Shown: one piece after another, positions 3,616-31,752 of the stretch
Numbering within the stretch: position 1 is the stretch's first letter
How the letters are laid out: every line of letters starts with the position of its first letter
From: a virus
Length of the DNA stretch: 64,000 nucleotides
Virus record (IMG/VR): IMGVR_UViG_3300044647_001578
Span: 1-64,000 of that record
Direction: 5' to 3' (one strand)
Position numbers and translations under genes: made by a program
Notes under the pieces: generated by a model
Databases searched by the model: none
The model's input: the letters and a program-made list of their open reading frames with translations, nothing else
What the model was told of the DNA's origin: nothing

Positions 3616-3870
3616 TCATTCATTTAGTGTATCATATCTCTCTGGGTCTGACAATATCTCTTCTTCTAAACCTTCTGGTATATTATATCCTAATTGTCTA
3701 TGTTGTCTGATATGTTCGATTAGCTGATCATCGTTAGTTATTTTCTCAGATAATCCAAATAATGAATATTCATCTAAGTTTTCATTTAGCCAACAGGCAC
3801 AACACTCTATATATCCTTCAACGTGAGCATATATGTATATGTCTGAGTCGAAGAATCTAGAGTATGCCAT
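3616..3870 (-). CDS. Hypothetical conserved actinophage protein
   Basis: 84 acidic residues starting MAYSRFFDSDIYIYAHVEGY, followed by CCAC. I recall similar MAYSR...SDVYVY...CCGC proteins from actinophages, where the function is unknown. The Cys-rich patch could bind metal. The ATG overlaps the upstream stop as TAATG, so it is coupled to the membrane protein before it. Confidence 0.65.
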   Translation of the reverse strand: MAYSRFFDSDIYIYAHVEGYIECCACWLNENLDEYSLFGLSEKITNDDQLIEHIRQHRQLGYNIPEGLEEEILSDPERYDTLNE

Positions 3871-4097
3871 TAGATGTGTAGTTTGTTTACAGGCTCTTTA
3901 GACCAGTGTATGTATGATCTAATATAGACTATTCCGTATGCCACCGCTGCAAATATGAATCCGTATTGCTTAGTTGTTATAGCATAAATGATCCATAGAC
4001 ACTCATTAAATAATAATAGGAACCAGGCCCATATGGACTTACGCCCTACAAAGTATATTCCTGTTACGCCAATAGCTGCTAGTACATAGGACCACAT
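3870..4097 (-). CDS. Small multi-span membrane protein
   Basis: 75 residues with three hydrophobic segments (about 3-17, 24-40 and 46-62) and a basic C-terminal tail. It resembles the last part of PnuC-type nicotinamide-riboside transporters and the small membrane proteins common in actinophages, but is far shorter than a PnuC. It overlaps both neighbours as TAATG. Role unknown. Confidence 0.65.
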   Translation of the reverse strand: MWSYVLAAIGVTGIYFVGRKSIWAWFLLLFNECLWIIYAITTKQYGFIFAAVAYGIVYIRSYIHWSKEPVNKLHI

Positions 4098-4494: not shown

Positions 4495-5040
4495 TTACTT
4501 ATGACGTAAGAATAATTGTGTAGTTATTCTTCTACCACTTAATACTGATTCTACTGCATGTAATGTATTAGAATCAAATACTACTATGTCACCTGCTTCT
4601 GGTTTAATCTTTTTATTTAAATCTACAAAAGTTAAATTGCCACCCTCAAAATCACCAGTAAGATACATGACAAGAGAAATGTCTGGGGTTATTTTTTCGC
4701 CATTTACTTCCCAGCCGTCAGTGTGTGGACCCATTGGCCCCATTGGGGTCTCCCATTTAAAAATTCTATAATGATTATATATTCTTTTGTAATCATCTGT
4801 CAATCTGTTAGTTTTTTCTAAAAATATATCTACTGCTTTAAGCATTGCCGAATTAATAATATCGTACCCATAGTCCTCTTCAAAGATGCTAACCCCGTAA
4901 CCAAGCTTTTCTCCATTTGCACGAAAATCTTCATCCCACTCCATACTTTGAGTTGACAATAAGAATGGCTCAACGTCATCTAAACAGTTTCTAATAAGAA
5001 TTCCTTGTGTGCCTAAAGTTTCAATAGGATCAAACTTCAT
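4495..5040 (-). CDS. 2OG-Fe(II) oxygenase, prolyl-4-hydroxylase-like (A)
   Basis: 181 residues. The double-stranded beta-helix motif is complete: iron ligands H106-x-D108 (GPHTDGW) and H161 (LHAVES), 2-oxoglutarate-binding R170/R171, and the FEGGNLTF strand typical of P4H-like members. Such enzymes hydroxylate protein side chains, nucleobases or small molecules using O2 and 2-oxoglutarate. It ends a tandem pair with oxygenase B (stop/start overlap), below a glutathione peroxidase. Substrate unknown. Confidence 0.88.
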   Translation of the reverse strand: MKFDPIETLGTQGILIRNCLDDVEPFLLSTQSMEWDEDFRANGEKLGYGVSIFEEDYGYDIINSAMLKAVDIFLEKTNRLTDDYKRIYNHYRIFKWETPMGPMGPHTDGWEVNGEKITPDISLVMYLTGDFEGGNLTFVDLNKKIKPEAGDIVVFDSNTLHAVESVLSGRRITTQLFLRHK

Positions 5041-5594
5041 TATTGCGCCTCATCAATGTGATTATAGAATAGGATTATGTTGCTTCTTTCACCATCAAGG
5101 ACTTCATTTACTGAGTGTGGGTGGTTTTCGTCACCTTTAAAATAGATTAATGTTCCTGCTGTCGGTTTATAAGAAACACTGTCCTTTTTGGAGCCAGAGT
5201 TATCGTTATAAAATACTATTTCACCGCCTTCATAATCATCTGTCAGGTAAAGCAAAGCTGAGTAGTAGGTGTTGGTGTATCCTTCAACTCCGCCATATGC
5301 GTCAGTATGCCAACCAAGACTTTCTCCCTTTTGAAGGATCTGATAGTTCATTCTATCTAACTCTATTTGATTGTTTTTAAATCCAAATTGATTTGATATA
5401 GAATTTTCTATTCTATTAATTAGATCTTGAACGACATAGCTTTCTTCGGTGCCCTCTTCGTTAAGCCTTATTGGCTTTAGGTAAACGTTTAATAGTCCTC
5501 TTGGATTCATCTCTGATCTAGACTTTAAGTATGCGTTTAAATACTTAGCTGTTTGAGGCGAAATAAAGTTTTCTAAAACATTAGGCTGTGACAT
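5040..5594 (-). CDS. 2OG-Fe(II) oxygenase, prolyl-4-hydroxylase-like (B)
   Basis: 184 residues. Ligands are H96-x-D98 (GWHTDAYGG) and H160 (HPHSVNEV), with R170 for 2-oxoglutarate and YEGGEIVF between them, all as in P4H-type enzymes. It is only distantly similar to oxygenase A next door, so the pair is not a recent duplication. It overlaps both the glutathione peroxidase before it and oxygenase A after it; the three are probably co-expressed. Confidence 0.88.
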   Translation of the reverse strand: MSQPNVLENFISPQTAKYLNAYLKSRSEMNPRGLLNVYLKPIRLNEEGTEESYVVQDLINRIENSISNQFGFKNNQIELDRMNYQILQKGESLGWHTDAYGGVEGYTNTYYSALLYLTDDYEGGEIVFYNDNSGSKKDSVSYKPTAGTLIYFKGDENHPHSVNEVLDGERSNIILFYNHIDEAQ

Positions 5595-6184
5595 TAGACG
5601 GCAACACCAAGCAAAGACTTAATAAATGGCTCAAAAGTATCAGATGTTTCATCTGGTGATAAGCCCGTTATCCTTCCAAGCCTGCCAACTACAAATTTAT
5701 CAAAGTTCCACGGGACCTCTCTATCAGCTGCTTCTGTCAAAAGCTTATAGATTGGATGAGCATTTTCTCCTCTAACATCCACTTTCTCTGACATTAAAAA
5801 GGTTACATTGTAGTTTGTAGTACAAAAATCTTTAATCTCTTCGTTAGTTCCTGGCTCTTGGCTATTAAATTGATTACACGGGAAACCGATGATAACCAAT
5901 CCTTCATCCTTGTACTTTTCATGTAGCCTCTGCAGGTCTTCGTATTGTTTTGTAAAGCCACACTTACTTGCAGTGTTAACTATAAGTAGCACCTTACCCT
6001 TAAAGCTTTCCATTTTTACGATATTGTTATCTATATCTGTAAAACTAAGATCATACAATGACATTTTTTTATCCTTTATCTCGTGGTACTGTATATGGTA
6101 ATCTCTTAGTTGGTAAGAGACTGCACAATAACAAATTGGGCAATTTGTTATCCATTCCGATTTGTCTGACCAGCCTTTAGTCAT
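5594..6184 (-). CDS. Glutathione peroxidase with N-terminal C2H2-like finger
   Basis: The GPx domain (from residue 41, MSLYDLSF) is full length at about 156 residues. It has the peroxidatic Cys (NTASKCGFT, Cys not Sec), GFPCNQF and PWNFDKF, so the Cys/Gln/Trp/Asn tetrad is complete. It should reduce peroxides, probably with thioredoxin. Residues 1-40 hold C15-x2-C18-x11-H30-x3-H34, a zinc-finger-like pattern not normal for GPx. The ATG at 6184 overlaps the upstream stop. A second ATG at 6064 with AAAGGAT upstream would give GPx alone, so start choice decides whether the finger is fused. Confidence 0.85.
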   Translation of the reverse strand: MTKGWSDKSEWITNCPICYCAVSYQLRDYHIQYHEIKDKKMSLYDLSFTDIDNNIVKMESFKGKVLLIVNTASKCGFTKQYEDLQRLHEKYKDEGLVIIGFPCNQFNSQEPGTNEEIKDFCTTNYNVTFLMSEKVDVRGENAHPIYKLLTEAADREVPWNFDKFVVGRLGRITGLSPDETSDTFEPFIKSLLGVAV

Positions 6185-6413
6185 TAGCTTCAGGTGAAGG
6201 AATCGGACCTTCATTGTTGGTTTCGGAAACCACTCTACGACCATTATAGGAACCTGAACTGTCTTTGGGGACAATTCGCTTAATTTCATATAAACAGTCT
6301 GGGCATTCGCCCTTGTACAACCATTTACCTGAATCTAAGACAACCATCTCGGTTAGCCTTCCGTCTACGTTTTTATTACAAATAACGCAGAAAGCACTCA
6401 GCCTTACTGTCAA
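6177..6413 (-). CDS. Zinc-ribbon protein, DUF5679-like
   Basis: 78 residues with CVIC (about 9-12) and CPDC (about 37-40), separated by a short beta segment (DSGKWLYKGE), then a polar tail. The layout resembles DUF5679-type zinc ribbons. The start is TTG, overlapping the upstream TGA. Function unknown; it could be a protein- or RNA-binding adaptor. Confidence 0.65.
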   Translation of the reverse strand: MTVRLSAFCVICNKNVDGRLTEMVVLDSGKWLYKGECPDCLYEIKRIVPKDSSGSYNGRRVVSETNNEGPIPSPEAND

Positions 6414-7246: not shown

Positions 7247-7837
7247 CTACATCCACAGTTTATCGTATGAATCGTATGCTCTTTCATAAACATATGTTTG
7301 GGTCATATATCTTTTTCCAGAACTCATTTCAAGAACTGAATGTATCTTTTCGCTTGGGAATATTATAATAGACCCAGCCTTTGGCTTAATGCATATACCA
7401 TCGTTTGGGAAATCTATCTCCCCGCCGATATAGTCGTCATTTAAATAGAATAAAATGGTTAGAGTTGGTCGGACGGGATTGCCGTTGTCCTGCACGTAGC
7501 TATATGCGTCGTTGTGTGGTGCTAACTTAGTTCCAGGGTTATACTCTCTAAATAACCACTTGCCGCTGTCTATGTTTTCTATTGGTAGGCTGTTAGAGTA
7601 CTCGATCAGACACTTTTGATATAAATCAAGAATTACTGGGTACAATCTTTCTTCTGGCCATACGCTAGTAGATCTACCTTTAATTGTGTAATCTTCAATA
7701 CCTGGTCCTGACCCACCTTTATTGGTGTACTCAACCCAGTTATCTTTTAACAAAACCTCTTCAAGAATTTTTGCTGGATCTTCTACAACACCCTGCCATT
7801 CCCAAATTAAATTATCTCTTTTAATTAAATTAATCAT
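7247..7837 (-). CDS. 2OG-Fe(II) oxygenase, prolyl-4-hydroxylase-like (C)
   Basis: 196 residues with H108-x-D110 (APHNDAYS), H166 (EKIHSVLE), R176, and YIGGEIDF. All iron and 2-oxoglutarate ligands are present. The ATG follows GAAGGG and overlaps the stop of the upstream micro-gene. It is the third oxygenase in 3.4 kb, but not adjacent to A and B and under separate control. Substrate unknown. Confidence 0.88.
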   Translation of the reverse strand: MINLIKRDNLIWEWQGVVEDPAKILEEVLLKDNWVEYTNKGGSGPGIEDYTIKGRSTSVWPEERLYPVILDLYQKCLIEYSNSLPIENIDSGKWLFREYNPGTKLAPHNDAYSYVQDNGNPVRPTLTILFYLNDDYIGGEIDFPNDGICIKPKAGSIIIFPSEKIHSVLEMSSGKRYMTQTYVYERAYDSYDKLWM

Positions 7838-8188: not shown

Positions 8189-8273
8189 CTATAGAGCTTT
8201 CTTCTATTCTATCCACTGCATCATCAATTGTTGGTGAGTGTTCTTTTGTGCAACTGCCGCACTCTCTACACAT
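8184..8273 (-). CDS. 29-residue Cys-rich micro-protein
   Basis: MCRECGSCTKEHSPTIDDAV to EESSIV; three Cys in the first eight residues. It starts inside the end of the DUF2061 gene with GGGGAAG upstream. The size is small, so support is modest. Confidence 0.4.
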   Translation of the reverse strand: MCRECGSCTKEHSPTIDDAVDRIEESSIV

Positions 8274-8481
8274 TTCTTCCCCATTTAACCTTATTCCAAC
8301 CACGTTCATGGAAATAATAAAGTATTGTTTTTGTAAATACTTCAAAGCTGGCTATTGCGCCTGCTGTTACTGGCTCTTTAGTTATTGCCCAAGATATTAC
8401 AAATGTGTCTGCTGTTCCAATAATTCGCCAAGTAATTGCTTTTAATGCAGACCTTTGTTTGGTCACCTTCATGATGGCCAC
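8266..8481 (-). CDS. DUF2061 membrane protein (copy 1)
   Basis: 71 residues. Motifs: SALKAITWRIIGTADTFVIS, then SFEVFTKTILYYFHERGWNK. Two hydrophobic helices and the YYFHERxW signature match DUF2061 membrane proteins, whose function is unknown. In bacteria I recall members near sulfate-activation genes. Here it follows the APS-kinase-like fusion by 36 bases. The start is GTG 8481 or ATG 8472. A second copy lies at 10308-10526, after a different enzyme. Confidence 0.8.
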   Translation of the reverse strand: MAIMKVTKQRSALKAITWRIIGTADTFVISWAITKEPVTAGAIASFEVFTKTILYYFHERGWNKVKWGRNV

Positions 8482-8517
8482 TCAATATTATTGTCTTTTG
8501 TTACAAGATTCCAAATT

Positions 8518-9273
8518 TTAGATGCCCATTTCTTTACGCTTTTGCGTAGCACTGATCGCTTCAATTTCTGCTCCTAACGAGACTTGCTCAATCTTATATC
8601 CAACATCTCTTCCATATACAATGTTAGTAATGTTTGGCATCTTAATTACCATTGCTTTATCCATTACTGGATCCTGTGCAATATATCCCTTTACCTGATC
8701 AAAATCCAAAGGGTCTTTTGCGCTAGTATTATATGTATTCCTTACCCCAAGCATTACTTGCTCTGTTCTATTTACCGCTTCTTCATACAAAGCATGGTGC
8801 CCTTCATGCCAAGGTTGATATCTCCCTAGCATTAGTGTTGTTGGTTGTCTCCAGTCGTGTAATTGAAAATCAACGCAGGCTATTCTAGCTGCAACATCAT
8901 ATTCTGTCATGTCGTCAAAGGTTAAGTCTGGGTTTGCTGGTGTTTCCCACATAGCAGTTGTGTCTGGGAAATCTCTAACTGGATTTCTGTTCATCCAAAC
9001 CACTTTGTCTGGGTTTCCAAATGATGCTCTTGTCTCTGCTGTTGGATTAATGAAATCAACAACTACATTATGCCCTTGTTTTGCCAATAATCTTGACAAT
9101 GCGCCCATTCTACGAGCCTGCTCAATTCTGTCTTCTGCAGTGAATCCAAGATCCTTGTTTAGCTCTGCTCTTACTTCATCGGCATTTAAATGTATTCCAT
9201 TAATTCTGTCCGCTAACTCTTTTGCAAATGTTGACTTACCAGATCCTGGCAGACCAATTACTTGAATAATCAT
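8518..9273 (-). CDS. APS-kinase-like / nucleotidyltransferase fusion
   Basis: 251 residues in two domains. Residues 1-140: P-loop kinase of the adenylylsulfate-kinase type, with GLPGSGKST at 7-15 and DFINPTAETR around 73-82. Residues 145-251: cytidylyltransferase-like HxGH domain, with GRYQPWHEGH at 150-159 and the closing ISATQKRKEMG. By family it would phosphorylate a small acceptor and transfer a nucleotide. Similar fusions occur in environmental phages as possible auxiliary metabolic genes. The real substrates are not evident; a role in sulfur activation is only inferred. It has its own operator-like promoter at 9303-9332. Confidence 0.85.
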   Translation of the reverse strand: MIIQVIGLPGSGKSTFAKELADRINGIHLNADEVRAELNKDLGFTAEDRIEQARRMGALSRLLAKQGHNVVVDFINPTAETRASFGNPDKVVWMNRNPVRDFPDTTAMWETPANPDLTFDDMTEYDVAARIACVDFQLHDWRQPTTLMLGRYQPWHEGHHALYEEAVNRTEQVMLGVRNTYNTSAKDPLDFDQVKGYIAQDPVMDKAMVIKMPNITNIVYGRDVGYKIEQVSLGAEIEAISATQKRKEMGI

Positions 9274-9302
9274 TTTACTTCTCTCTGTTTATAAATAACA
9301 CA

Positions 9303-9332
9303 CCCTACATAAGTATTATACTATATGTAGGG
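9303..9332 (-). promoter_or_regulatory. Palindromic operator around the -10 of the kinase fusion
   Basis: CCCTACATA (9303-9311) and TATGTAGGG (9324-9332) form a perfect 9-bp inverted repeat with a 12-bp spacer that contains the minus-strand -10 TATAAT (9315-9320). A dimeric repressor bound here would block transcription of 8518-9273. Confidence 0.65.
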
Positions 9333-9350
9333 CATGCTAGCAATGACTTG

Positions 9351-9557
9351 CTATACTTTTTTTCTGCCTGATTTTTTAGGCGGCTTTGGAATTAAACTTG
9401 TTTCTCTTCTTATTCCGTGCTTATTGGTATCAATTTTTACACCTTGTCTTGGATACCTTTTAGGTGTTTCTCTACTTGTAACGGCTCCTGCTGAAGCTCC
9501 TGCATTTGGTGCTGGTGTCGTACTCGTGCCGTCTTCTTTTTTAAAACTATTAGTCAT
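9351..9557 (-). CDS. Small basic, Pro/Lys-rich protein
   Basis: 68 residues, probably disordered, with a basic end (KPPKKSGRKKV). It overlaps the preceding 35-residue gene. No domain is recognised; the charge suggests nucleic-acid binding. Confidence 0.5.
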   Translation of the reverse strand: MTNSFKKEDGTSTTPAPNAGASAGAVTSRETPKRYPRQGVKIDTNKHGIRRETSLIPKPPKKSGRKKV

Positions 9558-9657
9558 TGGTTAAGCCTGACTCACCATCTCTAGATACATCTGTAATTGT
9601 GACTGGGGTGGCGCCTTGGGTGCTACCCAATGATTCGCATCCACATTCAATACACAT
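9550..9657 (-). CDS. 35-residue Cys-rich protein
   Basis: MCIECGCESLGSTQGATPVT to GESGLTND. The MCxxCGC start is shared with several small conserved phage and bacterial peptides, probably metal-binding. Both ends overlap neighbouring genes (TAATG before it, ATGACTAA after it). Confidence 0.5.
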   Translation of the reverse strand: MCIECGCESLGSTQGATPVTITDVSRDGESGLTND

Positions 9658-9806
9658 TATACGCCTCGATTTGCCCAGGCGTTAGCCCAGTAATCTGTTG
9701 CGTCTGCAACTGGTGCTGACTTTGCTTCTGCTTTTGGCTCTGCTTTTACTTCTTCTTTAACTTCAACAACTGGTGTTGTATCAATATCTTTTGTGTTATC
9801 TGACAT
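9657..9806 (-). CDS. 49-residue Ala/Lys/Glu-rich protein
   Basis: MSDNTKDIDTTPVVEVKEEV, an Ala/Lys/Glu-rich middle, and the ordered end TDYWANAWANRGV. Mostly disordered or helical. It overlaps its neighbours as TAATG. Function unknown. Confidence 0.5.
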   Translation of the reverse strand: MSDNTKDIDTTPVVEVKEEVKAEPKAEAKSAPVADATDYWANAWANRGV

Positions 9807-9808
9807 TA

Positions 9809-9967
9809 TTACTTACCGTTCTGTCCGAGGCCTGCGCCATCTTGTGTTGACTTATCTGTTGCTGCAAAAGCTGCTGCTGGTGCCTGTCCTGTTGGGTTTA
9901 GATCAAGGTTGTTTGTGTTTCCAGCCTTAACTTCGTTAAATCCTGTTAAATTCAATCCGTCTGTCAT
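9809..9967 (-). CDS. 52-residue hypothetical protein
   Basis: MTDGLNLTGFNEVKAGNTNN to DGAGLGQNGK, low complexity and Asn/Ala/Gly-rich. It has a good AGGAG Shine-Dalgarno and is preceded by an extended -10 TGCTATAAT (hexamer 10025-10030) and a leader with a GTGG/CCAC hairpin. It heads the short operon with the next three genes. Confidence 0.5.
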   Translation of the reverse strand: MTDGLNLTGFNEVKAGNTNNLDLNPTGQAPAAAFAATDKSTQDGAGLGQNGK

Positions 9968-10024
9968 TTTCTTACTCCTATAGGTTATTTATTTAAGTGG
10001 GACTAGTATTCCACTTATCCCTCT

Positions 10025-10030
10025 ATTATA
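10025..10030 (-). promoter_or_regulatory. Extended -10 promoter for 9809-9967
   Basis: TGC-TATAAT, giving a leader of about 50 nt that contains an AAGTGG/CCACTT hairpin (about 9994-10016). Confidence 0.55.
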
Positions 10031-10042
10031 GCATTTAGTTGA

Positions 10043-10165
10043 TTAGGATCTGTATTTTTTATGCCAGCAGGAATCACAGATATCTATGATTCCACCCTCT
10101 GGTTTAGCAGCTAATCTACTAGATTTATTACTACATCCTGCTATTTCACAGAATTCACCGAACAC
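10043..10165 (-). CDS. 40-residue zinc-finger protein, GTG start
   Basis: Reads MFGEFCEIAGCSNKSSRLAA, then ICDSCWHKKY: C-x4-C...C-x2-C plus His. I recall related small zinc proteins in actinophages. The GTG overlaps the previous TAG. Confidence 0.5.
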   Translation of the reverse strand: MFGEFCEIAGCSNKSSRLAAKPEGGIIDICDSCWHKKYRS

Positions 10166-10308
10166 TATTTAGATCCTTTGGCTGTTTGGCCACGGTACCC
10201 TGTCTTCTTCTTATTCATTGATCCTGGCTTCTTGTAACCAGCGCCATTTGGAGTTGCTGCAATTCTTTGCTCTAAAGCTTTTTTAATTTTATCGTGGTGC
10301 TTTCCCAT
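10165..10308 (-). CDS. 47-residue basic protein
   Basis: MGKHHDKIKKALEQRIAATP to GQTAKGSK, strongly basic. It overlaps the DUF2061 gene before it (TAATG) and the zinc protein after it. Possibly nucleic-acid binding; unknown. Confidence 0.5.
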   Translation of the reverse strand: MGKHHDKIKKALEQRIAATPNGAGYKKPGSMNKKKTGYRGQTAKGSK

Positions 10309-10526
10309 TATTTTACCTTATCTCCAAACTTTGACCATACTCTTTCGTGTAAAAAGTATCCAATCATTTCGCATGCCGTGTATATGATTGCAAATGCTCC
10401 AGAATATTCCCAATGTGCTTCTCCAGTAATAGCTTTTTCAAAAAAATAAACCATTGTTCCAACAAACCCAATATGAACTGCTGGCCAGGTTATTGATTTG
10501 TACAAACTTCTTTTATTCGATTCCAT
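10308..10526 (-). CDS. DUF2061 membrane protein (copy 2)
   Basis: 72 residues with SLYKSITWPAVHIGFVGTMV and YFLHERVWSKFG, the same helix-helix-FHERxW design as the copy at 8266. The two are clearly divergent (few identical residues outside the motifs). It starts inside the end of the luciferase-like monooxygenase gene (14-base overlap), so the two are translationally coupled. Function unknown; the coupling suggests a membrane partner for that enzyme or its product. Confidence 0.75.
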   Translation of the reverse strand: MESNKRSLYKSITWPAVHIGFVGTMVYFFEKAITGEAHWEYSGAFAIIYTACEMIGYFLHERVWSKFGDKVK

Positions 10527-11319
10527 TTTGCTCCTTTATAAGCTCTTCAATTATATCATGTACACGACCTGACTGTGGATCGTCCATATGATCATGCACT
10601 AGCAGGTCGCTAATGCCTATTGATTTTAAGTAATTAATTTTATTTATTAGATGTTCTTTTGTGCCACAAATGAATAAAAGCTTTTCTGATTCGCTGAAGA
10701 ACTCTTCTCCAAAACGGTCAGCTTCTTCTTGTGTATCTCTTATGACTAGTCCAAAACAAATCATTTGATTTTTATTATGAACTGGATTCCTGCTTTTTAA
10801 ATGATCTTCGTGCCTATTTATCATAGAAAGATGAGTAGCATTATGCTTTATTGCTAGTTTTCTTGTTTCGTCTGAGTGCCCTCCCATAACTATTGGTGGT
10901 TTAGACCTTAATATATCCATATTTAAAAACTTATCAAGCCATATGTCTGTGTAATTAATCCTAGATTCAGTTGTTTGAAGGAACTGGCTTACTAATACTA
11001 GATCTTCTACGCTTGTTTCCCCCGCATGAATATCACCAGAGACTACATTCAAAATTATTTTATTGGGCGCCATCTCATTTATTGATTGGCATATCATTGC
11101 CATATACTCGGGGCTTATTGCATAAGTTCTAATTGCAATCATATATTTTAATTTTTGCTTTGAAGACATAACTCTTACTGCCTTTGTCAAAAAATCTGGT
11201 ACTTTCGAATGATACACAAGTAGTACTGACTCGTAGCCAGCTTTTTCTAGCCTTGCCGAAAGTTCTGACAAATATTCAATCGACTGCTCGTTGCCTCTTG
11301 TCATACAATGAAATTTCAC
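10513..11319 (-). CDS. Luciferase-like (LLM) flavin-dependent monooxygenase
   Basis: 268 residues. The TIM-barrel pattern of LLM/SsuD-type enzymes is visible: LEKAGYESVLLVYHS, then KLKYMIAIRTYAISPEYMA, then APNKIILNVVSGD, and later KPPIVMGGHSDETRKLAIKH. Family members oxidise alkanesulfonates or other substrates with reduced flavin (or F420) and O2. The length is shorter than SsuD (about 380), so the insertion segments are reduced. ATG with AAAGGA. It is coupled to a DUF2061 protein. An uncommon phage gene; the substrate cannot be told. Confidence 0.75.
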   Translation of the reverse strand: MKFHCMTRGNEQSIEYLSELSARLEKAGYESVLLVYHSKVPDFLTKAVRVMSSKQKLKYMIAIRTYAISPEYMAMICQSINEMAPNKIILNVVSGDIHAGETSVEDLVLVSQFLQTTESRINYTDIWLDKFLNMDILRSKPPIVMGGHSDETRKLAIKHNATHLSMINRHEDHLKSRNPVHNKNQMICFGLVIRDTQEEADRFGEEFFSESEKLLFICGTKEHLINKINYLKSIGISDLLVHDHMDDPQSGRVHDIIEELIKEQNGIE

Positions 11320-17594: not shown

Positions 17595-17777
17595 TTATTC
17601 CTCGTTTCTATTTCTGATCGGACTTGTAATTATCCAAAGAGCAGTTGTAGCCATGATTCCATAACCAACAATTGTCTTTGCACTTCCGTCCAGAACTACC
17701 CAAGCAATAAACATACCAAGAAGGGTCCATGCTTGGTCTACCATATCTTTTAGGATATTCTTTATTATTCTTACCAT
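17595..17777 (-). CDS. Second small membrane protein (putative holin partner)
   Basis: 60 residues with two TM segments (about 16-30 and 36-52) and a charged end (PIRNRNEE). It is placed directly before the holin-like gene and overlaps the end of the 893-aa secreted protein gene, as expected for a holin/antiholin pair. The assignment is from size, topology and context only. Confidence 0.55.
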   Translation of the reverse strand: MVRIIKNILKDMVDQAWTLLGMFIAWVVLDGSAKTIVGYGIMATTALWIITSPIRNRNEE

Positions 17778-20452
17778 TTTCTTCTGCCTCCTTGACCTGG
17801 TGAATTAGCTCCTGAGCCTCCACCAGAACTTCCTCCGCCTCCTGTGCCACCTCCAGTGGCTCCTCCTGTGGCAACTGCTGCTGCATTAATTGCCGCACCT
17901 GCTGCTACAACTGTTGCTACAACCATTTCTGTTGCCTCTTCTCTTTCTTCATCTGACATATCTGCGCCTATATTGCTTAGTGCCTGAATAGCCGCTCCAG
18001 GGTCTGAAAATGCTGTTGATAATAACTCTGCAGGATTTTCAAGCAATACCAAAGATGCTGCTACCTCTGCCGTAATAACAACTTCATTTCCGTTTTCATC
18101 CTGTCTTACTTCAACTGGAGTAGATGCAGGCAAATCTTTATATTCAATTCCAGCTTCTTGTATCTGCTCTTTAGTTAAAGATTCTCCAGGAGCAATAGAC
18201 TCTACAAGAGCGTCCGCAATCAATTCTTTTTCTGCATTAGTTAATTTTCCGTCTTCAGATAAAGCATCTGCAAGGCCTTGAACTTCTTCTGCAGTTACTT
18301 CACCATCACTTGCTAATTCATTTAAAATGTCTTCTGCTTCCTCTGCATCTATTTTGCCATCAGACAATGCGTCATCAACAGATTCTTCTACTGCTTCTTC
18401 TGATCCCGCCTCTGGTTCTTCTGCAGGTGGCTCTTCTGCAGGTGGCTCTTCTGCAGGTGGTTCTTCTGCAGGTGGTTCTTCAGCAGGTGGCTCTTCTGCA
18501 GGTGGTTCTTCTGCAGGTGGTTCTTCAGCAGGTGGTTCTTCAGCAGGTGGTTCTTCAGCAGGTGGCTCTTCTGCAGGTGGTTCTTCAGCAGGTGGTTCTT
18601 CAGCAGGTGGTTCTTCTGCAGGTGGTTCTTCAGCAGGTGGTTCTTCAGCAGGTGGTTCTTCAGCAGGTGGTTCTTCAGCAGGTGGTTCTTCTGCAGGTGG
18701 TTCTTCAGCAGGTGGTTCTTCTGCAGGTGGTTCTTCTGCAGGTGGTTCAGGAGCTGGTGCAGGTGGAGTAGGGTCTGGTTCAGGAGCTGGTGCAGGTTCA
18801 GGTGCAGGTGGAGTAGGAGATGGTTCAGGAGCTGGTGCAGGTGCAGGTGGAGTAGGGGCTGGTTCAGGTGCAGGTGCAGGAACTGCATCAATTACTGTTT
18901 GTGCTACTGCTAATATTGTAGGTGCGGTAGTTACTTTTTCTACGGCTGTAGAAACAATTGCAAGGTCTGCCACCTTTTCAGTCAATGTTGTACTTGCTGC
19001 TGATAACGCCGTTACAGTATTTTGTGAAACAGTTGCAATTGGTGCAATAACTGTATTTGTATTTGCTGTATTTGTTGCAACAATAGCAGTAACTGCTGAG
19101 TTTAATGTAGCAATTTGTGCATTTGCTGTATCGATTGCTGCCAAGACTGTTGCATTGTCTGGATCAGGGGTGGGAGTAAATGCAGCGCCTTGACTAATTG
19201 TTCCAGTAAATCCCGTAGTAGTACTTGTATTACTAATATTTGTTACGGGACCATTTGTAGTCTCTCTTACATTAAACCTAGCACCATTTGGTATTGGTCC
19301 AGTCACGCTTACATCTGCTTGCCATGCCCCATCTGCTGGATTAACATCGGCATTAAATCTAACTTGAGTCATTTGTGTCTCTGCTGTTTGCAAGGGATAA
19401 ACTCTAAGATCCCAAGCAACGCTAAGGGTGTTTGTAGTTGTTGAATATGTAATTCCAGATCCATTACTCCAGGTGGTCCAGTCATACCCTGCTATAGAAA
19501 TCGAAGGTGCATTTGGAGTAGAATAATAGTTTGCACCTTCATTTACACCAAAGGTAATAGTGGCATTGGACCCGACGTAAACATTATTGTATGTGACTCC
19601 GCCCATTTGTAAATTAAATGGAAGGTTCATTCGAACACCAGCGTCATCTACATTAGATAAAACATTTGTGGTAGTGCCAATAGTTGCCGCTAGAGCATTG
19701 ACTGCATCTTGAGCGTTATTAATTGCTACGTTTGCTTGAGTTAATTGTGTTTGAGCCTCTGTCCGTGCAGGTGTTACTGCTGCCACTGCCGTAGTTGCTG
19801 TAGCAACTGTTGTAGTAGCCGTATCTACTGCTGTCTGTGCTGATTGAACTAAAACTGTGGCTGTCTCTGATTGGGCAACTTCTGTTGCAATTGCTGTAGC
19901 TACTTGTGCAACTGTGGTTGGTGTTTCTGTCATTAATGGGGTTGCTGTTGATATTACTGTGGCTACCGCAGAATCTACGGTAGTAACGGCTTGCGTTACT
20001 ACTGCTTGTGCCGCTATAACCTCTGGTGTTTGAGTTGTAGCGCTTACTGGGATTGCTGCTACGGCTTCTGTAACGGATGCTACCGTTGAAGTAATTGTTT
20101 GAACAACTGCTGTTGCTGTTTCTACGGCTGAGGATACATTTGATACTTCTGCTACCGCAGCCGTCGCTGCTGCTACCGCTGTATTTGCTGCTGATACAGC
20201 AGTGTTAGACGCTGTTACTGATTCAACCGCAGTGGCTATAGTCACTGTTGCTGTATCAGATGCAGCTGCGGCTTGTGCAACTTCTGTGGTTGCGGTTGCA
20301 ATGGCTGTGTTTACTGCCTGCTGTGCAGGGCTTACCACAACTTGTTCTGCAGGAGCAGGAGGCTCATTAGCATTAGCAAAGTTAGGACTAAAAAGGAAAA
20401 GCCAGCCGATTATAAAAAGGCTGGTTAAAAAATACTTTAGCTTTCTAGTCAA
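17771..20452 (-). CDS. Large secreted Pro-rich repeat protein
   Basis: 893 residues. Signal peptide to about residue 29 (FANANE). Then Ala/Thr/Val heptad-like repeats (about 30-260), a globular beta domain (about 270-420, VYVGSNATITFGVN), more Ala-rich helix, a Pro/Ala/Glu linker, about 22 tandem PPAEE pentapeptides, an acidic helical block with EF-hand-like SDGKID and EDGKLT turns, a hydrophobic stretch (EMVVATVVAAGAAINAAAVA), and a Gly-rich end GGRRKW. TTG start with AGGAG; extended -10 TGGTATAAT upstream. It resembles a cell-wall-spanning surface protein or adhesin. It is in one operon with the holin-like genes, so a role in lysis or cell-surface change is possible. Confidence 0.7.
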   Translation of the reverse strand: MTRKLKYFLTSLFIIGWLFLFSPNFANANEPPAPAEQVVVSPAQQAVNTAIATATTEVAQAAAASDTATVTIATAVESVTASNTAVSAANTAVAAATAAVAEVSNVSSAVETATAVVQTITSTVASVTEAVAAIPVSATTQTPEVIAAQAVVTQAVTTVDSAVATVISTATPLMTETPTTVAQVATAIATEVAQSETATVLVQSAQTAVDTATTTVATATTAVAAVTPARTEAQTQLTQANVAINNAQDAVNALAATIGTTTNVLSNVDDAGVRMNLPFNLQMGGVTYNNVYVGSNATITFGVNEGANYYSTPNAPSISIAGYDWTTWSNGSGITYSTTTNTLSVAWDLRVYPLQTAETQMTQVRFNADVNPADGAWQADVSVTGPIPNGARFNVRETTNGPVTNISNTSTTTGFTGTISQGAAFTPTPDPDNATVLAAIDTANAQIATLNSAVTAIVATNTANTNTVIAPIATVSQNTVTALSAASTTLTEKVADLAIVSTAVEKVTTAPTILAVAQTVIDAVPAPAPEPAPTPPAPAPAPEPSPTPPAPEPAPAPEPDPTPPAPAPEPPAEEPPAEEPPAEEPPAEEPPAEEPPAEEPPAEEPPAEEPPAEEPPAEEPPAEEPPAEEPPAEEPPAEEPPAEEPPAEEPPAEEPPAEEPPAEEPPAEEPPAEEPPAEEPEAGSEEAVEESVDDALSDGKIDAEEAEDILNELASDGEVTAEEVQGLADALSEDGKLTNAEKELIADALVESIAPGESLTKEQIQEAGIEYKDLPASTPVEVRQDENGNEVVITAEVAASLVLLENPAELLSTAFSDPGAAIQALSNIGADMSDEEREEATEMVVATVVAAGAAINAAAVATGGATGGGTGGGGSSGGGSGANSPGQGGRRKW
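18421..18749 (-). repeat. 15-bp minisatellite, about 22 copies (PPAEE)
   Basis: An uninterrupted 15-bp direct repeat, with two variants differing at one silent position (GCA or GCT for Ala), inside the secreted protein gene. Copy number is likely to vary by slippage. Confidence 0.95.
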
Positions 20453-23154: not shown

Positions 23155-23709
23155 TTAGCTTGAAGGCTTAAAGTCTACAAGAAATTCTTTTGGGGCAAAC
23201 CCTGAGCTTAGAGTGTACCTTTCTTTACCGCTAAGCATAGTTACATGATGCTTGTATTTGCTGTAAAATATAAACAGCTTCCCAGCTGTCGGGCTGAAGG
23301 TTATGTCCAAGTCATCAAACACTAAGTCTCCACCTTCAAACCCTTCATTTAAATACAATAAATATACTACTGCATCTTCGGGGTCAAAGTGTGATCCCAT
23401 TTCACTGCCTGGCATCATTTTTGATGCAAGAATATTTGGGAAGTGGGAGTATGTATTTTTATCTACACCTACTTTACCCATAAAATCATATACTAATGGG
23501 TGAACTTTATCTTTTACCAACTGCTTTAGATACATCTGGTCCTCGGATATTAATTCATCTGAGTGGAAGTCTATTTTCATTGTTAGTTGAGTCCTGTGGT
23601 TTACAGACAAAAACTTTTCATCAAGATTGTTAAAACAATCAAAGACTTTTTTAAAATTAATGTCGTCTTTGATGTCGCAAATAGCTACATGCTCGTGTAT
23701 AAAATTCAT
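23155..23709 (-). CDS. 2OG-Fe(II) oxygenase (D)
   Basis: 184 residues from MNFIHEHVAICD. H107-x-D109 (GSHFDPEDA), H155 (YKHHVTML), R164, with FEGGDLVFDD. All ligands are present. The start at 23709 follows TATACT (23717-23722) by seven bases; the frame is open further upstream to 23772 without a better start. It lies just downstream of the three-tRNA cluster. Protein hydroxylase by family; substrate unknown. Confidence 0.85.
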   Translation of the reverse strand: MNFIHEHVAICDIKDDINFKKVFDCFNNLDEKFLSVNHRTQLTMKIDFHSDELISEDQMYLKQLVKDKVHPLVYDFMGKVGVDKNTYSHFPNILASKMMPGSEMGSHFDPEDAVVYLLYLNEGFEGGDLVFDDLDITFSPTAGKLFIFYSKYKHHVTMLSGKERYTLSSGFAPKEFLVDFKPSS

Positions 23710-23716
23710 AAATACC

Positions 23717-23722
23717 AGTATA
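23717..23722 (-). promoter_or_regulatory. Leaderless promoter -10 for oxygenase D
   Basis: TATACT with seven bases to the ATG at 23709. Confidence 0.6.
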
Positions 23723-23748
23723 CCATTTTCTTTAATTTTTATAAACAG

Positions 23749-23821
23749 TGTCCCCAGATGGTATCGAACCATCGACCCGCAGATTAAAAGTCTGCTGCTC
23801 TACCAGCTGAGCTATAGGAAC
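23749..23821 (-). tRNA. tRNA-Lys (UUU)
   Basis: 73 nt. Acceptor GTTCCTA with TGGGGAC, anticodon loop CTTTTAA in a GCAGA/TCTGC stem, T-arm GATGG-TTCGATA-CCATC. Third in the cluster. Confidence 0.93.
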
Positions 23822-26028: not shown

Positions 26029-26652
26029 CTACCTCCCCATTGAATTAGTTAGAGGGTGGCCAGATGGAACATATCCTTTTGGAACCTTTATCATGTGGTA
26101 TATATGATTTGGCCAAGCATAATACTTTTCACTTAAAACTTCTTTAGTTGAATGTTTGCAATGATCTTCTGGACTATGGAATATCAGGTCGCCTTTCAAT
26201 GGCTTGTATACAATGTCTTGATCCTCATAGTAAAATTCTCCGCCTTCAAAATCATTAAAGAATATATACATTCCCATGTCAATGCCGTCTGCGTAGTCGA
26301 ACTCTTCGCCATCAACATAAAGTGCTGAGGCCTTTGATGCCTCTAGAAACTCTGAGTTGTCAGAATGTGCATATCTTTTAGTACCTTGTAATAATTTGTG
26401 AGGATGAATATTTGTGCCAACAAAATACCCGTCGTGTAGAAGAGATTGAATCCTAGATCTAATTTCTTGCAAACTCTCAACGCCCTTTTCTTCTATTACC
26501 TTAAACCTTTTCTCAGGGTGCGGCTGCCAGTAGTCTTCTGGGGGGAGGCTATCTAGGTACAGTGTTACCGAGTCAGATTCTTCGGGGCTCATGAAATTAC
26601 GATATACATATATGTCTTCGCCAATTTTTTCAAATAAATCTTTATTGAACAT
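26029..26652 (-). CDS. 2OG-Fe(II) oxygenase (E) between terminase genes
   Basis: 207 residues. H96-x-D98 (RYAHSDNS) and H167 (CKHSTKEV) are present, with FEGGEFYYED between. The usual Arg is replaced by Lys176 (EVLSEKYY), as in animal collagen prolyl hydroxylases, where Lys binds 2-oxoglutarate. It overlaps the upstream putative small terminase by 11 bases and ends two bases before terL, so it is expressed with the packaging genes. A virion or terminase protein may be its target (inference). Confidence 0.82.
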   Translation of the reverse strand: MFNKDLFEKIGEDIYVYRNFMSPEESDSVTLYLDSLPPEDYWQPHPEKRFKVIEEKGVESLQEIRSRIQSLLHDGYFVGTNIHPHKLLQGTKRYAHSDNSEFLEASKASALYVDGEEFDYADGIDMGMYIFFNDFEGGEFYYEDQDIVYKPLKGDLIFHSPEDHCKHSTKEVLSEKYYAWPNHIYHMIKVPKGYVPSGHPLTNSMGR

Positions 26653-30434: not shown

Positions 30435-30735
30435 TGTTTGTCTCCCAACATTCTATTAGTTGCTCTAGCATTGCCCACTCTATTACTGCAAGCCTTGTCT
30501 TTGATCCGTCTGAGCCAAGCACTAGCTTTAGTACTGGGCTTTTGTCCCTACTCACCTTAAATGTGTCAGTACATATCTTTGACCACATTGATTTAGATAT
30601 AGATATAGACTTTGAGTATTCTTTATAATCTACAACAAAATTATGCCAGACGGCATCTCCTTTTTGATAATCTCCACGACCTGAATTCTTTTGGCCTTTG
30701 GCGCCATCCCTTTTTATTTCTGATCGCTCTGACAT
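30421..30735 (-). CDS. Hypothetical protein
   Basis: 104 residues. The N-terminal 25 are basic and disordered, followed by a compact region (SKSMWSKICTDTFKV, then SKTRLAVIEWAMLEQLIECW). No family is recognised. It overlaps oxygenase F before it and the DUF6065 gene after it. Confidence 0.6.
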   Translation of the reverse strand: MSERSEIKRDGAKGQKNSGRGDYQKGDAVWHNFVVDYKEYSKSISISKSMWSKICTDTFKVSRDKSPVLKLVLGSDGSKTRLAVIEWAMLEQLIECWETNNVHD

Positions 30736-31559
30736 TAATTCCCACTCTCAACTGCAATTTCATCAGTAGATATCCTTATCAGCTGCATATCTTTATCGAC
30801 ATACTCTGATTCAGTCATTATGCCATCAGACTCTACAGTATATTTGCTTTCCCACACTATATTTTTATCTGAAACATAATCTAAAAATGTTCTTGCAAAA
30901 TATCGATTGGCATTAAAGTATTGTTTTACTCCATGATAAAACGGCTCAGTTGATGGCATTATTACTGCATCACCTGGCATTGGCTTATACTTATAGCTTT
31001 TTTTAGAAATATCATCATAGACACAAATTTCTCCACCGTCATAACTATTATTTAAATAAAAGTTTATTGTTGCTACGTGCCTTCTAAATTTAATTTCGTT
31101 TGGTATCGGAAGCTCATCAATATGATAGGCCATCATAAGCTTATCTGGTGGTCCATTGAACTTCTTTTCTTTTTCATACTCATATTTAAAGTAATCCACA
31201 TGTATGGACTTCTCAATAGAGTTTAGCTTGTCCCAATTTAATATGAAGTCTGGCCAAGTTCCAGACTCTTTAAATTCTTTAAAGTAATCTTTATTTATAA
31301 ATTCAGTTATATCATAAATTTCTTTTAAATACTTTTTTTCTTTAATTGCGATATCAGTGCCTGAGTCTAAACTGAGGCCACTATCAAATAGCATCCCTCT
31401 TCTTTGGCCCTGCTCATACCAATCCCTCCAGGGATCAAGAATAGAATCTACGTTGTCTTCTTCCAACAGATCAATTAGCTCTTGGCTATATTTAAATATG
31501 TTTTTGTACACAACTATTTGAGGAGCAATTATTATCTTTTCTATATTTTCGTATGACAT
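30735..31559 (-). CDS. 2OG-Fe(II) oxygenase (F), long form
   Basis: 274 residues from MSYENIEKI, the longest of the six. H146-x-D148 (AYHIDELP), H209 (PFYHGVKQ), R219, with YDGGEICVYDD. It has an extra N-terminal helical part of about 90 residues and a C-terminal tail, so it may recognise a protein partner. The start at 31559 has GGTTGGG upstream; ATG 31586 lies inside the previous gene. Located between recA and DUF6065. Confidence 0.85.
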   Translation of the reverse strand: MSYENIEKIIIAPQIVVYKNIFKYSQELIDLLEEDNVDSILDPWRDWYEQGQRRGMLFDSGLSLDSGTDIAIKEKKYLKEIYDITEFINKDYFKEFKESGTWPDFILNWDKLNSIEKSIHVDYFKYEYEKEKKFNGPPDKLMMAYHIDELPIPNEIKFRRHVATINFYLNNSYDGGEICVYDDISKKSYKYKPMPGDAVIMPSTEPFYHGVKQYFNANRYFARTFLDYVSDKNIVWESKYTVESDGIMTESEYVDKDMQLIRISTDEIAVESGN

Positions 31560-31560
31560 T

Positions 31561-31752
31561 TTATCCCAACCTATGTACTGACTCATGTCCTTGTGAACAA
31601 GTCCATTTCATTATTAAATTTACAGGATCCCACAACCCGCCATCTACATCAATATCACATTTAGAGCATGGCTTAATTCCTTGAAGAGTTTCAAATGTAG
31701 AGTTGATTTCTTCTGGCTCATCTTTCTTTAAAAATTCATTAAGATTTGGCAT
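31561..31752 (-). CDS. Zinc-ribbon protein after RecA
   Basis: 63 residues, MPNLNEFLKKDEPEEINSTF, then CSKC and C-x3-H (TCSQGHES). The ATG at 31752 overlaps the end of recA. It may be a RecA or recombination accessory (position only). Confidence 0.6.
   Translation of the reverse strand: MPNLNEFLKKDEPEEINSTFETLQGIKPCSKCDIDVDGGLWDPVNLIMKWTCSQGHESVHRLG

Follow-up and report, generated by a model that had tools for sequence, protein, structure and literature searches.

A DUF2061 membrane protein and a compact APS kinase-nucleotidyltransferase as a probable sulfate-activation cassette of phages

A small membrane protein of the DUF2061 family (D1) and the two-domain enzyme encoded directly before it (KNT) probably constitute a two-gene sulfate-activation cassette, with KNT making PAPS by means of its HxGH domain and its kinase and D1 serving this step. 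PAPS is the sulfate donor used by cells, and sulfotransferases consume it. In the mechanism that we propose, the C-terminal HxGH domain of KNT would adenylylate sulfate to APS, the N-terminal APS kinase would phosphorylate APS to PAPS, and D1, a small helical-hairpin membrane protein, would serve KNT, most likely by delivering sulfate and otherwise by tethering the enzyme to the membrane; the PAPS would be consumed by sulfotransferases, enzymes which are encoded in related phages. The proposal offers a testable function for DUF2061, which occurs in bacteria, archaea, and phages as a domain of unknown function, and a candidate minimal PAPS synthetase whose adenylylating domain is unlike either known ATP sulfurylase. 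The main interest lies in this cassette and not in the pair formed by the second DUF2061 protein (D2) and a luciferase-like monooxygenase (LLM).

The window, that is, the whole stretch of DNA analyzed, makes up 64 kb of a virus record of 72,015 bases, which is probably incomplete. The terminase of this virus is ~64% identical to the terminase of Streptomyces phages of ~128 kb, and the virus is therefore actinophage-like. The genes discussed here are the following:

8266..8481, minus strand: D1, DUF2061 membrane protein of the sulfur-linked subfamily (PF09834, 80.7 bits)
8518..9273, minus strand: KNT, APS-kinase-like domain plus miniature HxGH nucleotidyltransferase (PF01583, 64.2 bits; CTP_transf_like, 22.6 bits)
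10308..10526, minus strand: D2, divergent DUF2061 protein without the sulfur-linked motif (PF09834, 32.9 bits)
10513..11319, minus strand: LLM, luciferase-like monooxygenase, a distant SsuD relative (PF00296, 36.5 bits)
3870-4097: short PnuC-like protein of 75 aa, 4 kb from KNT (PF04973, 27.4 bits against a cut-off of 27.3)

The sequence-only reading had described two divergent DUF2061 genes at 8266-10526, each downstream of a different enzyme, and this description holds. Both proteins pass the curated PF09834 cut-off of 23.1 bits, D1 strongly and D2 weakly, and they share 38% identity over 64 residues; the whole 72,015-base record contains no DUF2061 genes besides these two. A gap of 36 bp separates KNT from D1, and the last 14 bp of the LLM gene are shared with the start of D2. 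D1 is 71 aa long when counted from a GTG codon, an in-frame ATG three codons in being the likelier start, and D2 is 72 aa long. Each has two predicted TM segments and is under purifying selection among its viral homologs (median pS 0.54 and pN 0.019 for D1, 0.57 and 0.066 for D2).

KNT (251 aa) consists of a kinase domain (residues about 1-140) and a nucleotidyltransferase domain (about 145-251), and matches phrog_10255 with 231.8 bits. The earlier label of an APS kinase/nucleotidyltransferase fusion is right at the level of Pfam, with the PF01583 match extending over profile positions 4-91. By sequence, the kinase half is related to the APS kinase 2yvu (E 3.8e-12), and the 50 best PDB matches found by Foldseek for the AlphaFold2 model of KNT (pLDDT 89.2) are without exception APS kinases or bifunctional enzymes that contain such a kinase domain. 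The P-loop, the N.DLGF..EDR...RR and F(I)NP/SP motifs, and the region equivalent to YExPENP are retained, with MWETPANPDL of KNT aligned to the YEPPENP region of APS kinases. The domain is shortened and lies below the TIGR00455 equivalog cut-off (63.1 vs 138.7 bits).

The nucleotidyltransferase half carries the GRxQPxHxGH, NPF segment, and ISxTxxR (ISATxxR) motifs of HxGH adenylyltransferases. Its nearest relative is NMN adenylyltransferase (1f9a, E 1.5e-9, first 70 residues only), after which follows a conserved PNITNI.YGRxVGY segment that is unique and does not align to NMNAT. The match to NadM (PRK01153) reaches 25 bits over about 40 residues, below the cut-off of 127. Against the Sat family PF01747, 13/22 members match weakly, the best sub-threshold E being 0.0036; the nucleotidyltransferase half of locus L171 scores 14.9 bits, under the cut-off of 24.3. 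A model of the isolated domain (pLDDT only 73) gave weak PPAT/NMNAT matches and is uninformative on the substrate.

PAPS synthetase (PAPSS), of about 620 aa, has its APS kinase N-terminal to a Sat-type ATP sulfurylase. KNT resembles it in the order of its domains, an N-terminal APS kinase and a C-terminal nucleotidyltransferase of the HxGH superfamily, and in having as neighbors sulfotransferases and CysH, which need APS or PAPS. It differs in its size, in a nucleotidyltransferase of ~107 aa that by sequence is NMNAT-like and not Sat-like, and in that KNT relatives are often split in two genes. We consider that KNT is probably a compact PAPS synthetase, whose ATP sulfurylase part may be of a new type; a search of open-access papers returned nothing relevant on a phage PAPS synthetase. 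More tentatively, the C-terminal ~110-residue NMNAT-like half could constitute an ATP sulfurylase of a third kind, in addition to Sat and CysDN, which would help many phages to produce PAPS for sulfotransferases of their own and act as the assimilatory enzyme of one marine alphaproteobacterial order, with D1-type DUF2061 as a dedicated sulfate-entry protein across bacteria and phages; this broader reading could well be wrong. That the nucleotidyltransferase half is most closely related to NMN adenylyltransferase and not to an ATP sulfurylase counts against the cassette proposal itself.

Five genomes of that marine order (L171, L291, L292, L293, and L411) contain an operon of the order SiR-CysH-DUF2061-KNT kinase-KNT nucleotidyltransferase. 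CysD was found in none of the five, the sole PF01507 match above cut-off in each being the CysH of the operon, and Sat in none of four of them, several of the genomes being incomplete MAGs in which a missing CysD or Sat could stem from incompleteness. The fifth (G059) does have a Sat, located in a glycan cluster. As the reductases of the operon are present and CysD and, in these four genomes, Sat are lacking, no known activating enzyme is left there except KNT, and it is this genomic context that points to the predicted ATP sulfurylase activity of KNT. MAG incompleteness and the Sat of G059 both count against the cassette proposal.

An unlikely alternative is that KNT is sulfur-related but works as an APS kinase only, its nucleotidyltransferase half having another role, with APS coming from a host ATP sulfurylase and D1 still serving the pathway. 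Clear homology to a sulfate-activation enzyme is indeed confined to the kinase half. However, four of the five operon genomes yielded no further ATP sulfurylase, the two halves adjoin or are fused in nearly all loci, and in phages the nucleotidyltransferase half is the better conserved of the two.

The proposal that KNT makes PAPS is also consistent with its neighbors in viruses. In a second viral set, comprising 80 KNT loci picked for their resemblance to the nucleotidyltransferase half from bacteria, a sulfotransferase lies upstream of KNT in 38/80 loci and overlaps or abuts the kinase gene in 29; the one in L309, with 50.9 bits, exceeds the Pfam cut-off (PF13469 or PF00685). Phages with a D1-type protein encode compact sulfotransferases as well: proteins of L384, L385, and L387 score above the Pfam sulfotransferase cut-offs (29.0-29.8 bits), and L384 has three such genes in a row. 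Together, the SiR-CysH operon, the upstream sulfotransferases, and the compact sulfotransferases of D1-type phages favor KNT as a compact PAPS synthetase. The window's own, probably incomplete record holds no sulfotransferase, a point against the cassette proposal, and neither PAPS reductase nor Sat was found in 31 viral records of up to 120 kb. Were phages to bring both sulfate activation and sulfotransferases into the cell, a glycan, a protein, or a metabolite might be sulfated during infection. This would be notable in freshwater acI Actinobacteria, in whose sequenced strains assimilatory sulfate reduction is missing (PMC5301498); to name the acI lineage as host here is a guess.

The gene before KNT in three loci (L009, L010, and L030), and one near KNT in L124, were considered as sulfotransferases and rejected, having no significant Pfam or PDB match; they contain R-N-P and K-x-G-S/T-S motifs.

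We also considered whether KNT might act in NAD salvage, as a nicotinamide riboside kinase plus NMN adenylyltransferase that would resemble NadR in function but have its domains in the opposite order. The PnuC-like protein would feed it, and D1 would be either a bystander or a channel for the substrate. In favor of this, the nucleotidyltransferase half is NadM-like, sharing the three motifs given above with NadM and NadR and finding its best sequence matches there, and the short PnuC-like gene lies in the same window. Yet this half measures about 107-117 aa, compared with 168-181 aa in NadM, aligns over its first 70 residues only, continues into the unaligned PNITNI.YGRxVGY segment, and is joined to a kinase that by both sequence and fold is APS-kinase-like, in place of a ribosylnicotinamide kinase. 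NAD salvage also leaves unexplained the KNT halves in SiR-CysH operons and directly behind sulfotransferases, and the fusions of DUF2061 to CysN and to APS kinase argue against it, so that we regard it as improbable.

Some relatives of KNT stand apart from sulfur genes. In G243, a complete SAR11-like genome, the two halves are separate genes in the company of Rieske, GcvT, and dehydrogenase genes, with neither CysH nor DUF2061 near them, and the fused KNT of G131, G151, and G222, as well as that of Clavibacter and Stenotrophomonas phages, has no DUF2061 and no sulfur genes next door. These loci count against the cassette proposal, and some members of the KNT family at loci without sulfur genes may act on another substrate.

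The linkage of D1 to KNT is close. A scan of IMG/VR with D1 gave 392 relatives, the best 80 of which were examined. Upstream sequence of 900 bp or more was available for 79 D1 loci; 78 of these have KNT inside that 900-bp stretch, usually at a gap of 40-43 bp, with the reservation that contig redundancy makes viral locus counts too high. KNT identity across the D1 loci ranges from 58 to 100%. The gene preceding KNT belongs to more than 12 families while the order of KNT and D1 is steady, so the D1-KNT pair behaves as a cassette, of which D2 is not a part. In other phages, DUF2061 is found before KNT (L344), behind it (L362, L368, and L370), or between its two halves (L373).

Cellular genomes present the same association with other enzymes. 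We scanned bacteria and archaea for 80 loci, ranked by similarity to D1 and not by neighborhood, and added three plasmid loci; CysD, CysN, CysC, or sulfite reductase occurs in the fetched flanks of 53 of these 83. Typical gene orders are CysK-DUF2061-CysD-CysN-SiR in Campylobacterota, CysD-CysN/C-DUF2061-CysQ in Sphingomonadales, and DUF2061-CysD-CysN-SiR in Bacteroidota, and a Mesorhizobium plasmid has sulfotransferase-DUF2061-CysD/NodP-CysN/NodQ adjoining nod genes. Fusions are of three kinds: CysN-DUF2061 in Microvirga (L164), CysN-CysC-DUF2061 in an alphaproteobacterium (L398), and, in Roseivirga (L221), DUF2061 joined to a complete APS kinase; L397 shows a partial CysN-DUF2061 frame. In the examined flanks of some Campylobacterota loci there is no APS kinase. 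D1-type DUF2061 is a sulfate-activation partner in cellular genomes, and what its partners have in common is the APS/PAPS-forming step, with the product passing to CysH or to a sulfotransferase. The CysD-CysN(-CysC) and NodP-NodQ systems thus resemble the KNT loci in their neighbors (DUF2061, sulfotransferase, CysH, and SiR) and in the fusion of DUF2061 to CysN or CysN-CysC, whereas the phages and the alphaproteobacterial operon genomes lack CysD and would use an adenylylating enzyme of another family.

With regard to the role of D1, a purely mechanical one is possible at a lower likelihood, in which it would anchor KNT (elsewhere CysN or CysC) to the membrane, neither carrying nor sensing sulfate. 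DUF2061 is fused to either end of soluble enzymes, and both termini of the hairpin are therefore cytoplasmic, as an anchor would have them; the small size of about 70 aa and the prediction of just two TM segments are also in keeping with this. An anchor, however, has no need of the nearly invariant polar residues in or near the TM hairpin (K14, R19, D25, T26, E47, K51, Y55, H58, E59, and R60 are invariant in four D1-like proteins), nor of the tandem DUF2061-DUF2061 proteins with four TM segments which also exist. Because of these conserved polar residues and the tandem duplication, D1 would fit better as a small sulfate carrier or channel, with anchoring close behind.

The sulfur link is specific to one subfamily. 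D1 has the motif set K..TWR / DTF / TK..LYY.HER.W, and we defined a sulfur-linked motif as K[AST].[ST][WY]R in the first helix region plus [TS]K..[LIFM][YF] in the second. D1 contains both parts; D2 has KSITWP and CEMIGY at these positions and contains neither. This work thereby splits DUF2061 into a sulfur-linked motif subfamily, with D1, and the rest, with D2. Of 115 evenly drawn alphaproteobacterial genomes, 21 have DUF2061; the gene is sulfur-linked in 4/6 genomes whose protein bears the D1 motif and in 0/15 whose protein does not (Fisher p ~0.0025). The other two motif-bearing genomes are SAR11-like and have no sulfur genes nearby, which again speaks against the cassette proposal. At the level of the whole family, iron- or Fur-related expression of DUF2061 genes has been described in Caulobacter (PMC3751524) and Shewanella (PMC12442407); open-access papers yielded nothing relevant on DUF2061 function.

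The sequence-only reading had suggested that DUF2061 serves the pathway of its partner enzyme, possibly sulfur-related, in both pairs. For D1 the neighborhood survey bears this out, in phages and in cells, through the pairing with KNT, the sulfate loci, and the three kinds of fusion; for D2 it does not, as LLM precedes D2 in just 27/84 loci and is no steady partner. The genes found before D2 elsewhere encode a secreted Ig-like protein, a CHAP-type endolysin-like protein, and a cupin-like protein. Since D2 lacks the motif and LLM stands before it in so few loci, the LLM-D2 pairing is mostly incidental, a sulfur role for this pair is not supported, and we reject a single enzyme-plus-DUF2061 rule covering the two copies. 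The comparison of LLM with SsuD is apt insofar as LLM is a distant relative; its 45.6 bits against TIGR03565 lie far under the cut-off of 518.2 for an alkanesulfonate monooxygenase.

D2 might instead be non-metabolic, for example a lysis-related (holin-like) or structural membrane protein that came to stand behind LLM by chance in one phage clade, which we think rather unlikely. D2 persists where LLM is absent, in about a dozen loci stands immediately behind a CHAP-type endolysin-like gene (gap 0-3 bp), and is without the sulfur-linked motif; it nevertheless keeps the HER.W end and the DUF2061 match, neither of which a holin requires. One weak point remains for LLM, in that a distant LLM-like gene lies directly before KNT in about 6 loci.

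Directly upstream of KNT, the fusion of an APS-kinase-like domain with an HxGH nucleotidyltransferase, at L048:4340-5209 lies a distant paralogue of the luciferase-like monooxygenase, with overlapping stop and start, and about five further loci similar to L048 also have such a paralogue directly before KNT. This arrangement is the sole sign hinting at a link between the monooxygenase and sulfur. Homologues of D2, the divergent DUF2061 gene, come immediately after a CHAP-type endolysin-like gene at a gap of 0-3 bp in L097, L129, L149 and other loci, a position that would fit a lysis-related membrane protein.

The closest cellular DUF2061 to D1, the sulfur-linked copy, is 74% identical and lies on a contig (L169) whose title, Bifidobacterium breve MAG, seems doubtful; the fetched stretch of this contig contains no sulfur genes. 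In the complete SAR11-like genome G243 (1.2 Mb), KNT occurs as a split pair (L294:7487-8268) neighbored by Rieske, GcvT, methylenetetrahydrofolate-reductase-like and dehydrogenase genes, with neither CysH nor DUF2061 beside it.

The window's phage holds many 2OG-Fe(II) oxygenase-like genes, and such genes are found again around KNT of other phages. Relatives of this phage (L384, L385 and L387) encode compact sulfotransferase-like proteins in as many as three genes, consecutive or within one region, with 2OG oxygenases and an SGNH-like gene close by.

Genes in the window and in its relatives
Window 4495-5594, 2OG-Fe(II) oxygenase-like; the 4495-5040 part confirmed by Pfam
Window 7247-7837, 2OG-Fe(II) oxygenase-like; confirmed by Pfam
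Window 23155-23772, 26029-26652 and 30735-31586, 2OG-Fe(II) oxygenase-like by sequence appearance only
L384:2248-4082, also L385 and L387, compact sulfotransferase-like genes (180-223 aa)
Window 3870-4097, PnuC-like protein (75 aa), slightly above the Pfam cut-off; it corresponds to no more than the initial portion of the transporter family
Window 17771-20452, secreted-looking protein (893 aa) containing an extended stretch of PPAEE repeats

The glutathione peroxidase gene as called (window 5594-6289) spans a tRNA-Arg gene (6187-6258), and its true start is therefore probably further in.
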